A stretch of DNA of 34,572 bases from a virus, in IMG/VR virus record IMGVR_UViG_3300007633_000005, positions 1-34,572 of that record. One strand, 5' to 3'. The notes below the pieces were generated by a model. The model searched no databases. It was not told the origin of the DNA and saw only the letters and a program-made list of their open reading frames with translations. Shown one piece after another: positions 18,456 to 33,828 of the stretch. The position numbers and the translations under genes are program-made. Position 1 is the first letter of the stretch. Each line of letters opens with the position of its first letter.

Positions 18456-18488
18456 ACTTATAAAACGATTTTTTTCTTTTTTTGTTAC
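18456..18488 (-). promoter_or_regulatory. ECF-type late promoter, copy 1
   Basis: On the minus strand: GTAAC (18488-18484), 15 bases, then TCGTTTTATAAGTATG ending in the start codon at 18455. It begins one base after the stop codon of the 55-residue gene at 18489 and should drive the tail operon. Confidence 0.8.
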
Positions 18489-18656
18489 TTAGTAGATGGC
18501 AACTATCTCTGACAATACAAAAACACAATCTAAAGAACCTTCTTTATTCGAGATTTTAGTATGTTGATTAATAGCATTTAAATCAGACGCTAGTTTTAAA
18601 GCTATTTTTTCAGAAACTTTTTTTTCAATCCCATTTTTAAAAAGTACTGTTTTCAT
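18489..18656 (-). CDS. 55-residue protein, tandem copy 2
   Basis: Starts MKTVLFKNGI and ends CVFVLSEIVAIY. The neighbour at 18687-18854 encodes a clear paralogue of identical length with the same first ten residues. The middle keeps QHTKI at the same position in both copies. Conservation of both ends and length between diverged copies indicates that they are real genes. The protein is probably a small alpha/beta domain; function unknown. The stop sits next to the late promoter. Confidence 0.7.
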   Translation of the reverse strand: MKTVLFKNGIEKKVSEKIALKLASDLNAINQHTKISNKEGSLDCVFVLSEIVAIY

Positions 18657-18686
18657 GTTCTAAATTTTATATAATATTTTTTTTAC

Positions 18687-18854
18687 TTAGTAAATAGCAA
18701 GTATTTCGCATAAAACAAAAACACACTGTAAAGACTTATCTTTATTATATATTTTCGTGTGTTGATAACCAAGATTTAAATGAGACGCTAGTATTTCAGC
18801 TTTTTCCTGAGACACTTCTAATTTAATTCCATTTTTAAAAAGTACTGTTTTCAT
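18687..18854 (-). CDS. 55-residue protein, tandem copy 1
   Basis: A 55-residue gene placed directly after the large terminase subunit; it starts MKTVLFKNGI and ends CVFVLCEILAIY. It is a paralogue of 18489-18656, arising from a tandem duplication of about 198 bases that includes the spacer. Possibly a terminase- or assembly-associated factor, judged only by position. Confidence 0.7.
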   Translation of the reverse strand: MKTVLFKNGIKLEVSQEKAEILASHLNLGYQHTKIYNKDKSLQCVFVLCEILAIY

Positions 18855-18888
18855 GTTTTGATTTTTATTACTTGTTGTTTTTTCTGAT

Positions 18889-20384: not shown

Positions 20385-20822
20385 TTATACGGTTTTCTTT
20401 CCACAAACCTCGCAAATATTTTCTTCTTTTTCTTCTTCTTTTTCCTCTTCTTTAGTTTCCTCAATTCCAAAATCAACAGGCAAATCTAGCCCCCACTCTT
20501 CCAGTTGTTCAGGCTCCCACTCATTCGCAATCATATCCCAATCCCAATCTCCAAAACCAACATTGTCTTTGATGATAAACTCATCTTTTTGCTTTTGCGT
20601 CCATCCTGTTGAATACATTACTGGCACGTCATCATATCCAGCTTCAATGCAAGCTTTCAGTCTCATATTACCGCCAAGTACCATGTTATTTTCATCAATC
20701 ACAATTGGTCTGACTGATAGCATTTCAGGAAACTCTTTAATGCTTTTCACTAGCTTTTTGAACTTCTCGCTCCTTATGAATCTAGGATTGTTTGGGTTTG
20801 GTTTTATTTCTGTTATTTTCAT
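20385..20822 (-). CDS. ParB/Srx-like nuclease-fold protein with C-terminal zinc ribbon
   Basis: 145 residues. The N-terminal ParB-like fold is seen in IKPNPNNPRFI, RPIVIDENNMVLGGNMRLKA and DEFIIKDNVGFGDWDWD. The C-terminus is acidic (Glu/Lys repeats) and ends with CEVCGKK, half of a zinc ribbon. ParB-like proteins sitting next to adenine/cytosine-N4 methyltransferases in phages are common and thought to be partners in DNA modification or defence evasion. The gene overlaps the upstream gene by 4 bases (ATGA). The role is not proven. Confidence 0.75.
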   Translation of the reverse strand: MKITEIKPNPNNPRFIRSEKFKKLVKSIKEFPEMLSVRPIVIDENNMVLGGNMRLKACIEAGYDDVPVMYSTGWTQKQKDEFIIKDNVGFGDWDWDMIANEWEPEQLEEWGLDLPVDFGIEETKEEEKEEEKEENICEVCGKKTV

Positions 20823-22873: not shown

Positions 22874-23314
22874 TCACTTATTTTCATAACTCTCAAAAAC
22901 TTTATCCAGCATTTCAATCATTCTTAACAATGGCTTTGGGCTACATCCTGAGCAGGGTTTAAAATATTGCTTTGCGAAAATATCAGAATACAACTTAGCA
23001 ACGAACTCAATTTGATCGTTTTTCATTACCAAAGTCCGAACCTTTTTGAAGTGTTTGTAGTCTGCATATTCTGATTCTGTAAAGCATCTAACAGGAACTA
23101 GCTTTGATGGCATTACTTTGTTCAATACCTTTTTTCTTTTATCGCAACCACAGTCCTCACCATCTTTAAATATTGTTTTTTTGATAGCGTTTGTAACTGA
23201 TGCAATCGGTGTTTCATTTAGCAAATAATCCACTTTGTCTCCTAACCCTTGTTGGTTGTCTTTCAGCCACTGTTTGTACTCTTTTGTTCTTTTATCCTTT
23301 GGCGGTTGGCTCAT
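22874..23314 (-). CDS. Cysteine-rich protein after the sigma factor gene
   Basis: A 146-residue protein of a kind common next to terminase genes in flavobacterial phages. Cys pairs CGC (about 54-56) and CSGC (about 121-124) suggest a zinc site. The LNETPI...V motif recurs in the linker of the portal protein (4821-6725). Its start overlaps the sigma gene by 23 bases. A role in DNA packaging or transcription is plausible but not shown by sequence. Confidence 0.65.
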   Translation of the reverse strand: MSQPPKDKRTKEYKQWLKDNQQGLGDKVDYLLNETPIASVTNAIKKTIFKDGEDCGCDKRKKVLNKVMPSKLVPVRCFTESEYADYKHFKKVRTLVMKNDQIEFVAKLYSDIFAKQYFKPCSGCSPKPLLRMIEMLDKVFESYENK

Positions 23315-23747
23315 CTTTAAATAATTTGTTGCGTGCTTTTTTCAATTCCCTATGTACAAAAGCATAATTTATATTGAACTCTTTTTGTATTTGCCTTAAA
23401 CTTTTGTTTTGACTTTCAAGGATCAATTGTTTTTGATGAAAAGGTAGTTTTTCAAATCTATCAATAATACATTTTTGAATGTCATCAATTTCAAATTTTT
23501 CTAATACTTTCACTTCATTAAAAAACCAATCTTCTGGAAAAAAAAGTATGTCTTTTCTCTTAACCTTATCATAAAACATAAACCTCAAAGCTGTGAAGAT
23601 ATAGCTATCATTCAAGCCTCCTTTCATATTGTGAATTTTCAAGTACATATCTTGCACCAAATCATCAGCTGTGTTTTTATCTCCAGTAAGTTTTAAGGCA
23701 TACGCTCTCCAAATATGATCTTTTTTAGAAATCAACTCTAAACTCAT
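23292..23747 (-). CDS. Phage-encoded ECF-type RNA polymerase sigma factor
   Basis: 151 residues, the size of a two-domain ECF sigma factor. Region 2 is at about 10-65 with the core-binding and -10 contacts (ADDLVQDMYLKIH at 27-39, FTALRFMFYDKVKR at 51-64). A short acidic linker follows, then a region 4 helix-turn-helix at about 98-143 (LPFHQKQLILESQNKSLRQI then YAFVHRELKKARNKL). It is the first gene of the leftward arm and has a host-type promoter (23765-23772). Three downstream gene starts carry an ECF-type promoter motif, which makes this protein the obvious activator of the late genes. This link is inference; related proteins can also act as small terminase-like DNA binders. Confidence 0.8.
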   Translation of the reverse strand: MSLELISKKDHIWRAYALKLTGDKNTADDLVQDMYLKIHNMKGGLNDSYIFTALRFMFYDKVKRKDILFFPEDWFFNEVKVLEKFEIDDIQKCIIDRFEKLPFHQKQLILESQNKSLRQIQKEFNINYAFVHRELKKARNKLFKDEPTAKG

Positions 23748-24615: not shown

Positions 24616-24648
24616 TTTGCACAATGTTAAAATGTTTGTTATATTTGC
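24616..24648 (+). promoter_or_regulatory. Bacteroidetes-type early promoter
   Basis: TTTG (24616-24619), 20 bases, then TATATTTG (24640-24647). The spacer has GTTAA nine bases before TATATTTG (24626-24630), as in three other early promoters. It should drive the recombination/replication genes starting at 24676. Confidence 0.8.
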
Positions 24649-26870: not shown

Positions 26871-27171
26871 ATGGGCAAAATGCTAATCGGTGCAATCGAC
26901 CTTAACAAGATTGACAAAACAAAAATTGTAACAACTGACAAAAATGGAAACCCATTTAAAAATGGTGCCAAGTATTTAAATATTGTTCTTTGGATTAATG
27001 ATGAACCAGATCAGTTTGGAAACAATGCAAGTATTCAAGTTTCACAAACAAAAGAGGAGAGATCAGAGAATAAAACCTACCTACATAGGAAATTTAAAAG
27101 AGTTTAAAAAAGATTCTAGCTCAATGAAATCACCTTCAGGTGAGACTGTAGAAGGTGATCTACCTTTTTAA
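26871..27171 (+). pseudogene. SSB-like replication protein split by a +1 frameshift
   Basis: The frame from ATG 26871 (MGKMLIGAIDLNKIDKTKI...) runs to a TAA at 27105-27107, giving 78 residues. A conserved end is in the +1 frame: TYIGNLKEFKKDSSSMKSPSG then EGDLPF ending at 27171. The body (KYLNIVLWINDEPDQFGN, SQTKEER) and the acidic tip EGDLPF are those of a small SSB-like protein; the tip is the usual protein-binding end of SSB. The shift must occur near 27071-27080, where AAT AAA ACC has a run of four A. So either the gene is broken, or an extra base is an assembly error, or ribosomes shift here. In every case the intact product is an SSB-like single-stranded DNA binder. Confidence 0.65.
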
Positions 27172-27261
27172 ACCATTTTCCCGACGTGGGTAATATGGTA
27201 AAACCATTTTGTTGACGATAACAAAATGGTAAAACCAACCCGTTGAACTCCACGAGTTGGT
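27172..27261 (+). repeat. Three-unit array of 28-bp hairpin repeats, 31-bp period
   Basis: Three units (27172-27199, 27203-27230, 27234-27261), each 28 bases, all beginning ACCA and ending TGGT, separated by AAA. The middle unit is a perfect 11-bp inverted repeat (ACCATTTTGTT with AACAAAATGGT) around a 6-base loop. Unit 3 has a 10-bp stem with one mismatch, unit 1 an interrupted stem. Stem sequences differ but length and ends are kept. It lies between the SSB-like gene and the DnaA-like gene. Confidence 0.8.
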
Positions 27262-27269
27262 GTAATTTT

Positions 27270-27299
27270 AAAGTGGTCAAATTCGACCACTTTTTTTTT
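27270..27299 (+). terminator. Strong intrinsic terminator
   Basis: A perfect 9-bp stem AAAGTGGTC/GACCACTTT (27270-27278 with 27285-27293), loop AAATTC, then T residues through 27299. It separates the recombination genes from the replication genes. Confidence 0.85.
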
Positions 27300-27319: not shown

Positions 27320-27682
27320 ATGAGTTTTGAAGAACTGAGACAATACATTCTGGAAAAAAGCAACATTGACGTTCTTTCTAAAAAAAGATTTTGCCCAATA
27401 CCAACAGCAAAAAAAGTTTTTATTCAAGTAGCTCGAGAAAAATGCTGTGAAAAATTTGGCATTAAAAGAACGTTTGAGGATATTGGTAGTTTTTTAAATT
27501 TGAATCATTCAACGGTCATTCATCACTACAAACATGATCTTAAATATGATTTTATAGAATACCCAATATTTAAAATGATATTTACTAAATTCTTTCCACA
27601 AACTAAAAAATCAATTGAGGAATACAAACTAGAAAACGAAATGCTAAAAGAAAAAATTAAAATTTTAACAAATAAACAATGA
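27320..27682 (+). CDS. DnaA-domain-IV-like DNA-binding protein
   Basis: A 120-residue protein. Residues 52-71 read FEDIGSFLNLNHSTVIHHYK, matching the signature helix-turn-helix of DnaA domain IV that binds DnaA boxes (typically D/N-HSTV). Residues 1-50 are a helical lead; the C-terminal end (about 95-120) is a short coiled coil (EEYKLENEMLKEKIKIL). No ATPase domain is present, so it is a DNA-binding protein only, perhaps recognising the origin or the hairpin array just upstream. It overlaps the next gene by 4 bases. Confidence 0.75.
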   Translation: MSFEELRQYILEKSNIDVLSKKRFCPIPTAKKVFIQVAREKCCEKFGIKRTFEDIGSFLNLNHSTVIHHYKHDLKYDFIEYPIFKMIFTKFFPQTKKSIEEYKLENEMLKEKIKILTNKQ

Positions 27683-28380
27683 GCGAAAAACCAAACTTTT
27701 ATTCTGTAATACCTGCAACCGTAAGGTATGACACCAACCTATCATCAAGCGAAAAACTTTTTTATTCTGAACTAACCGCCATGAGTAATTCCCAAGGCTT
27801 TTGCTGGGCGTCCAACAGTTATTTTTCTGAACTTTATAATGTTTCTAAATCAACAGTTTCTTTGTGGATTAAAAAGTTAGAATCAAAAAATCATATCAAA
27901 GTTTTTTATCAAAAAGAAGGAAAGCAAATAGTAAAAAGAGAAATTTACCCTATACAGAAAATCGAAAGGGGGTGGTCAGAAAATCAAAAGGGGGGTAGTC
28001 AGAAAATCGAAAGGGGGTGGTCAGAAAATCGAAAAGAGAATAATACAAGTATTAATAATACAAGTATTAATATAGATACGCATTCTGGTTTTTCTTTCAG
28101 AAAAAGTTTGTGTGGTTTAGGTGTTGAAAAAAAAATAGTAGATGATTTTTTAAAAAACAGAAAACTAAAAAGACTTGCAAATACTGAGACTGCTTTTAAT
28201 CGTTTAAAAAAAGAAGTTTTAAAAAGTAAAATCCCTTTGAACGAGTTGTTTGAAATTATTGTTTCAAAGGGGTGGGGTGGTTTTCAAAACGAATGGATGA
28301 AAAACTTAAATAGAACATACACTAATACAAAAAAAATGAGCATGGCTCAAAAAATGAGAATTGAATATGGAATTAACTAA
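27679..28380 (+). CDS. Replication initiation protein with N-terminal winged helix
   Basis: 233 residues. The N-terminal ~100 residues form an HTH_36/winged-helix domain: PATVRYDTNLSSSEKLFYSE, MSNSQGFCWASNSYF, and VSKSTVSLWIKKLESK. Residues ~93-125 are repeats of QKIERGWSEN encoded by 22-23-bp iterons (27955-28037), then NNTSI twice from the 15-bp repeats (28039-28068). The C-terminal ~100 residues are helical and resemble DnaD/replication protein ends (LNELFEIIVSKGWGGFQNEW). This is the organisation of lambda gpO, with its origin inside the gene. It would recruit the host helicase. Confidence 0.75.
   Translation: MSEKPNFYSVIPATVRYDTNLSSSEKLFYSELTAMSNSQGFCWASNSYFSELYNVSKSTVSLWIKKLESKNHIKVFYQKEGKQIVKREIYPIQKIERGWSENQKGGSQKIERGWSENRKENNTSINNTSINIDTHSGFSFRKSLCGLGVEKKIVDDFLKNRKLKRLANTETAFNRLKKEVLKSKIPLNELFEIIVSKGWGGFQNEWMKNLNRTYTNTKKMSMAQKMRIEYGIN
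27955..28037 (+). repeat. Iteron array inside the replication gene
   Basis: Four copies of a 22-base unit, CAGAAAATCGAAAGGGGGTG plus GT: 27955-27976, 27977-27999 (23 bases, one extra base and changes), 28000-28021 (identical to the first) and a partial fourth from 28022. The G-tract in each unit stands out in this A+T-rich genome. The layout recalls origin iterons. Confidence 0.8.
28039..28068 (+). repeat. Two 15-bp palindrome-containing repeats next to the iterons
   Basis: AATAATACAAGTATT occurs twice in a row (28039-28053 and 28054-28068); each contains the palindrome AATAC-AA-GTATT. The block is A+T-rich and follows the iterons directly, like the unwinding region of a theta origin. Confidence 0.75.
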
Positions 28381-29662: not shown

Positions 29663-29692
29663 TTTGTTTGTTAATTTATTTAGTATATTTGC
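29663..29692 (+). promoter_or_regulatory. Bacteroidetes-type early promoter
   Basis: TTTG (29663-29666), 17 bases, then TATATTTG (29684-29691), with GTTAATTTATTT in the spacer as in the 7064-7093 and 33836-33869 promoters. It drives the 29720 gene and probably those after it. Confidence 0.85.
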
Positions 29693-33763: not shown

Positions 33764-33794
33764 TTTTTTTCATAATTAGTTTTAATGGTTAGTG

Positions 33795-33828
33795 ATACCC
33801 TAGTTTTTTTAGCTAGGGTATTTTTTTT
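33795..33828 (+). terminator. Strong intrinsic terminator
   Basis: Stem ATACCCTAG/CTAGGGTAT (33795-33803 with 33813-33821), then T residues to 33828. Ends rightward transcription from the 33049 promoter just before the next promoter. Confidence 0.85.

Follow-up and report, generated by a model that had tools for sequence, protein, structure and literature searches.

At positions 27172-27261 of the window, which is the complete 34,572-base IMG/VR virus record analysed here, three short inverted repeats are wedged between the stop codon of a gene for an SSB-like protein and an intrinsic terminator, behind which the genes for a small DnaA-domain-IV-like protein and a replication initiator follow in the same orientation. 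By sequence comparison the window resembles flavobacterial phages. Its portal protein is 44.5% identical to that of Nonlabens phage P12024S, and the relatives of this protein include a 99% identical 4-kb contig that ends short of the array region. Structural genes lie mainly on the minus strand and early genes on the plus strand. The features of the locus are as follows.

24616-24647, plus strand: nearest upstream flavobacterial-type promoter, TTTG...TATATTTG; in an operon with the SSB-like gene
26871-27171, plus strand: SSB-like gene, phrog_24909 family; acidic C-terminal tail ...GDLPF, stop codon 27169-27171
27172-27199, plus strand: hairpin unit 1, ACCATTTTCCCGACGTGGGTAATATGGT; stem ACCAT/ATGGT + TT/AA + CCC/GGG, loop GACGT
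27203-27230, plus strand: hairpin unit 2, ACCATTTTGTTGACGATAACAAAATGGT; perfect stem ACCATTTTGTT/AACAAAATGGT, loop GACGAT
27234-27261, plus strand: hairpin unit 3, ACCAACCCGTTGAACTCCACGAGTTGGT; stem ACCAAC/GTTGGT, C-A mismatch, CGT/ACG, loop TGAACTCC
27270-27299, plus strand: intrinsic terminator, AAAGTGGTC-AAATTC-GACCACTTT; hairpin 27270-27293, T-run to 27299
27320-27682, plus strand: small protein with a DnaA-domain-IV-like helix-turn-helix (sub-threshold Pfam match); start 20 nt past the T-run
27679-28380, plus strand: replication initiator, HTH_36/O-like
27955-28034, plus strand: 22-bp iterons, 3.6 copies, 89% matches, inside the initiator gene
28039-28072: AT-rich direct repeat, inside the initiator gene, after the iterons
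29663-29691, plus strand: next intergenic flavobacterial-type promoter

Promoters of the early region

The sequence TAnnTTTG is the flavobacterial -7 promoter consensus (PMC9723704). Plus-strand promoters with TTTG followed by TAnnTTTG were located in the early region at 24616, 29663, 33049 and 33836, the last of which comes right after the other strong terminator of the window (33794-33822). None was recognised on the plus strand between 24647 and the start of the DnaA-like gene at 27320, and the only strict plus-strand match before 29663 lies inside that gene (27473-27502). Barring a promoter of another type, expression of the DnaA-like gene would thus need read-through of the terminator. 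Such a promoter could sit unseen near the array, since the window may encode a phage sigma factor (23292-23747, a sub-threshold match to Sigma70_r2); P12024S likewise codes for a sigma-70 region 2 protein. Elsewhere in the window, a ParB_N-like domain was found just under the Pfam cut-off at 20385-20822, and a 198-bp repeat occurs in two copies, 78% alike, at 18479-18868, where no minus-strand ORF of at least 60 aa is listed.

Structure of the hairpin array

The array consists of three inverted repeats of 28 nt that recur every 31 nt, with AAA between the units, exactly as an earlier note made from the sequence had described it, and extends from the first base after the stop codon of the SSB-like gene to a point 8 nt short of the terminator. 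Predicted folding gives three separate hairpins, with 10, 12 and 10 pairs in units 1, 2 and 3, respectively. Pairing is imperfect in unit 1, which contains a bulge as well as a T-T mismatch, and in unit 3, which has one C-A mismatch, so that the claim of the earlier note that pairing is maintained in differing stems needs tempering on this point. It does hold in that each 5′ arm pairs best with the 3′ arm of its own unit (9, 11 and 10 of 12 matches, versus 4-8 for arms of different units). Units 1 and 2 are 71% identical and look, from their sequences, like duplication products that differ on both sides of the stem, with CCC/GGG in one and GTT/AAC in the other. The stems that the earlier note called covarying belong to three units of one genome rather than to homologues, so that this is not covariation as the term is normally understood. 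Selection on the shape of the units and not on their sequence, which had also been suggested, is supported because pairing within each unit is kept although the stems differ.

The folding of this region is not readily matched by chance. None of 200 dinucleotide shuffles of 27160-27275 folded as well (z = -3.6). A triple-hairpin statistic, defined as the energy of the weakest of three hairpins at one fixed period of 28-35, reached -9.2 kcal/mol, a value attained by none of 1500 dinucleotide shuffles (best shuffle, -6.5 kcal/mol). It is units 2 and 3 together with the terminator hairpin that give this best score; units 1-3 at period 31 score -8.6 kcal/mol, and every one of the 1500 shuffles was weaker than that as well. 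No other position in the 34.6-kb window came within 1 kcal/mol of the best score.

The folding energy of the array is -48.1 kcal/mol on the minus strand versus -44.4 kcal/mol on the plus strand, a small advantage of the minus strand that stems from unit 3, whose C-A mismatch turns into G-U there; with DNA folding parameters, hairpins form on both strands too. Since both strands fold, folding by itself cannot say which strand matters. We favour action as plus-strand RNA on account of the orientation of the array, the stop codon before it and the terminator after it.

That terminator, which the earlier note had singled out as strong, has a G+C-containing hairpin with a T-run directly after it, and the pairing probability of the hairpin is about 1 with the array alongside. 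A 33-bp stretch that includes it (27267-27299) is 91% identical to sequence found in phages of Flavobacterium columnare, FCL-2 among them, where the counterpart is intergenic and lies about 34 nt past a gene end.

The upstream SSB-like gene

In the window, the reading frame of the SSB-like gene is interrupted near 27070-27107. The N-terminal part (26871-27107) stops at 27107, and the C-terminal part, which carries the ...GDLPF tail, is conserved and intact in the next frame, to 27171. The aligned relatives have one uninterrupted frame, and we cannot tell whether the interruption is a sequencing error or a real change. The gene is 72.6% identical to its counterpart in Tenacibaculum phage JQ and 66% to that in Polaribacter phage P12002L. 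It belongs to phrog_24909, a family of unknown function most members of which end in DDLPF or similar, an acidic tail that we take to resemble the acidic tip of SSB. This DLPF tail is the only feature that suggests SSB identity: Pfam, PDB-sequence and PDB-fold matches gave no support for it. The structure model of the family (pLDDT 80) has no significant PDB match, and its named matches in BFVD are uncharacterised phage proteins only.

Hairpins behind the SSB-like family in related phages

Hairpins are enriched behind members of this family. When gaps of 22-200 nt were considered and only hairpins within the gap were counted, a hairpin of -10 kcal/mol or stronger followed 18 of 32 family members versus 25 of 133 control gene ends (p = 6e-5, a value that is approximate because the downstream regions were thinned by shared 10-mers only); the controls were open frames of at least 100 aa and may hold some non-genes. 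The comparison was refined once, and its less strict version (54% of 54 family members versus 20% of 346 controls) points in the same direction. In 17 of the 18 cases the gap to the next gene contains no TAnnTTTG. Intrinsic terminators likewise occurred no more than 150 nt behind the stop codon in 16/55 distinct regions downstream of the family, the window being included and counted at its earlier stop, versus 16/294 control ORF ends.

The hairpins of the relatives are unrelated in sequence (for example GGGGGATTAAGTTCCCCC, and GGGAGGGG...CCCCTCCC), and several are without a T-run. Most relatives have a single hairpin behind the gene, and many are without a strong one. A hairpin behind the SSB-like gene is thus a recurrent solution, of which the triple array, particular to the window, is an extreme form. 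Reading by eye also suggested pseudoknot-like interleaved stems at four places in related loci (L005:646-760, L230:1803-1910, L037:5108-5245 and the minus strand of L037, 34480-34385). These elements follow the SSB-like gene or precede a replication gene, their second stem being a terminator with a T-run; those of L005 and L230 are similar in sequence, and none of those in L005, L230 and L037 has an Rfam match at the gathering score.

Replication genes and the likely origin

The label of DnaA domain IV that the earlier note had given to the 27320-27682 protein corresponds to a sub-threshold Pfam match (E = 1.4e-4; 22.2 bits, with a cut-off of 31.5), and the other neighbour, which it had called SSB-like, matches no SSB family. 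For the DnaA-like protein, an AlphaFold model built on a single sequence is poor (pLDDT 54). No relative was found with peptide patterns in IMG/VR, in phages, or among 397 genomes of one family (a search run without a positive control), and 28 selected records yielded one weak match. Small DnaA-domain-IV-like proteins are present in related phages that have no array.

In phages with O-like initiators the origin usually lies within the initiator gene. The sequence of the window fits this pattern, in that the iterons and the AT-rich repeat inside the initiator gene (27955-28072) are the likely replication origin. The AT-rich part of this stretch accounts for a short match at the DNA level to initiator genes of staphylococcal phages.

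The suggestion that the array itself is an origin or initiator-binding array finds no support. Its units are dissimilar rather than near-identical direct repeats, it contains no DnaA box, and the iterons lie about 700 bp downstream in the initiator gene. DnaA-box-like matches in the window as a whole are about as frequent as chance predicts (10 found, 10.5 expected).

Searches for further arrays

In pattern scans of IMG/VR viral contigs and of a GTDB-based genome collection no second copy of the array was recognised in another phage or genome; the array is known from one genome so far. Folds were judged visually rather than against a cut-off in these scans, which would not pick up relatives whose units end in other sequences. 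A two-unit pattern gave 22 loci in the viral contigs, a few with one paired unit (such as L014 and L023) and none with two adjacent self-paired hairpins of comparable quality. A three-unit pattern gave 15 loci in the GTDB-based collection and 18 in the viral contigs, which resemble coding tandem repeats and do not fold as three separate hairpins. The spacer pattern TGGTNAAACCA, required twice, gave 33 loci in the viral contigs in which some enclosed units pair; four (L243, L257, L258, L261) have single ACCA...TGGT units of about -13 kcal/mol between TGGTNAAACCA spacers. Among the matches listed by an automatic scan of related loci for evenly spaced hairpins, ordinary coding sequence predominated.

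Within the window, unit 2 occurs once when up to 3 mismatches are allowed, and five other ACCA-N(16-24)-TGGT strings have no comparable stem, as read from the strings. Rfam has nothing at gathering score for the whole window, including the array, and a permissive scan of the array region gave only matches far under the gathering scores.

A candidate mRNA element between operon genes

The reading that we favour, and to which we give an even chance, is that the array and a leaky terminator form an intercistronic mRNA element that raises expression of the upstream gene relative to that of the replication genes. Transcription begun at the early promoter (24616) would pass through the SSB-like gene, the three hairpins would form one after another, and most transcripts would end at the terminator behind the array. 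Expression of the replication initiator and of the DnaA-like protein would depend on the fraction that reads through. The structured 3′ end of the SSB-like mRNA that termination or cleavage leaves would be shielded from 3′-5′ exonucleases, and the upstream product would be made in high ratio to the initiator proteins. Transcription of the region as RNA, partial termination and protection are each inferred.

This mRNA element is favoured because the array follows the direction of transcription and sits flush between a stop codon and the terminator, because pairing is kept in units with different stems, and because hairpins are enriched behind the SSB-like family. Position, folding and the lack of a recognised promoter between the genes are those of an intercistronic mRNA-stabilising hairpin. 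Protection alone does not account for three units, a fixed period and fixed ACCA/TGGT ends. An RNA regulator had been the last-named alternative of the earlier note, whose interpretation is overall partly supported; with the stop codon, the terminator and the orientation taken together, it turns out to fit the anatomy best.

Four other explanations were weighed, which rank in the order antitermination, DNA-binding sites, single-stranded DNA hairpins and free small RNA. The first of these, which we consider unlikely, is an antitermination or attenuation switch in which the hairpins influence RNA polymerase as it passes, like those of HK022 put RNA, or refold with the terminator to give timed read-through. 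The three hairpins do stand immediately before a terminator that initiator expression must pass, and pairing, with one G-U included, is possible between the 5′ arm of the terminator, AAAGTGGT, and the arms ACCATTTT of units 1 and 2. In the computed ensemble, however, the terminator and the outer stem of every hairpin coexist with a probability >0.9, which leaves no competing fold without a helper. Put-type elements sit close to a promoter, whereas the recognised promoter here is 2.5 kb upstream of the array. That the array is a new phage RNA element, in which phased, shape-conserved hairpins set or time read-through via RNA polymerase or a recruited RNA-binding protein, is a proposal that we regard as rather improbable.

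Equally improbable is that the units are palindromic sites at which a dimeric protein binds DNA, such as an operator of the adjacent DnaA-like protein, with the 31-bp period placing the sites on one helix face. The constant ACCA/TGGT ends, the period and the helix-turn-helix protein encoded next door would suit such sites, but symmetry within units is kept better than similarity between them, and a DNA reader should keep the sequence of its site. DnaA domain IV binds asymmetric sites, and the array has no DnaA box. Neither was a sigma-A promoter recognised at the array that could be controlled, and similar DnaA-like proteins exist without an array.

We think it still less probable that the units act as hairpins of single-stranded DNA in replication, for example as a priming or assembly site on a displaced strand by the initiator genes. 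Folding of both strands with DNA parameters and the closeness of replication genes agree with this, but the likely iteron origin lies elsewhere, as does the cumulative GC-skew minimum (23749, at the switch in gene orientation), and it would be left unexplained why the array fits so closely from stop codon to terminator. A free small RNA whose structure serves a target of its own, either as a decoy that occupies an RNA-binding protein of the host or as a repeat RNA of antitoxin type, is very doubtful: the order of repeat array, terminator and gene is that of type III toxin-antitoxin systems (PMC8860590), but the downstream gene is DnaA-like rather than a ToxN-type nuclease, the repeats are dissimilar and not near-identical, the predicted hairpins are plain, and no Rfam family matches at gathering score.

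If the mRNA-element reading is true, flavobacterial phages would tune the ratio of SSB-like protein to replication initiator through structured intercistronic RNA, in a layout that recurs behind the SSB-like family with unrelated sequences, and the locus would be a simple example of shape-only selection in phage operons. The triple array is so far known from a single genome, and its reach is to that extent limited.

Comparison with known systems

Protective intercistronic hairpins have been described in Escherichia coli, for example in malE-malF and menBCE, and consecutive ones can occur in one operon (PMC5927463). Like the array, these are stable, lie within an operon right behind the favoured gene and may stand several in a row; the array differs in that its three units keep constant ends and a constant period and that an intrinsic terminator comes after them, and its protective role is a prediction. 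Partial termination is a recognised transcript class in Flavobacterium (PMC9723704), and the window resembles intra-operon terminators with partial read-through in its hairpin and T-run, with the next gene 20 nt on and no recognised promoter, although its terminator is preceded by a hairpin array that was recognised in none of the relatives. REP/BIME elements are also short, imperfect palindromes in intercistronic positions, but they are dispersed, whereas the paired units of the array are found at one place in the genome. HK022 put RNA shares with the array the presence of tandem hairpins in a phage early transcript, a predicted one in the case of the array, although the array lies far from the recognised promoter.
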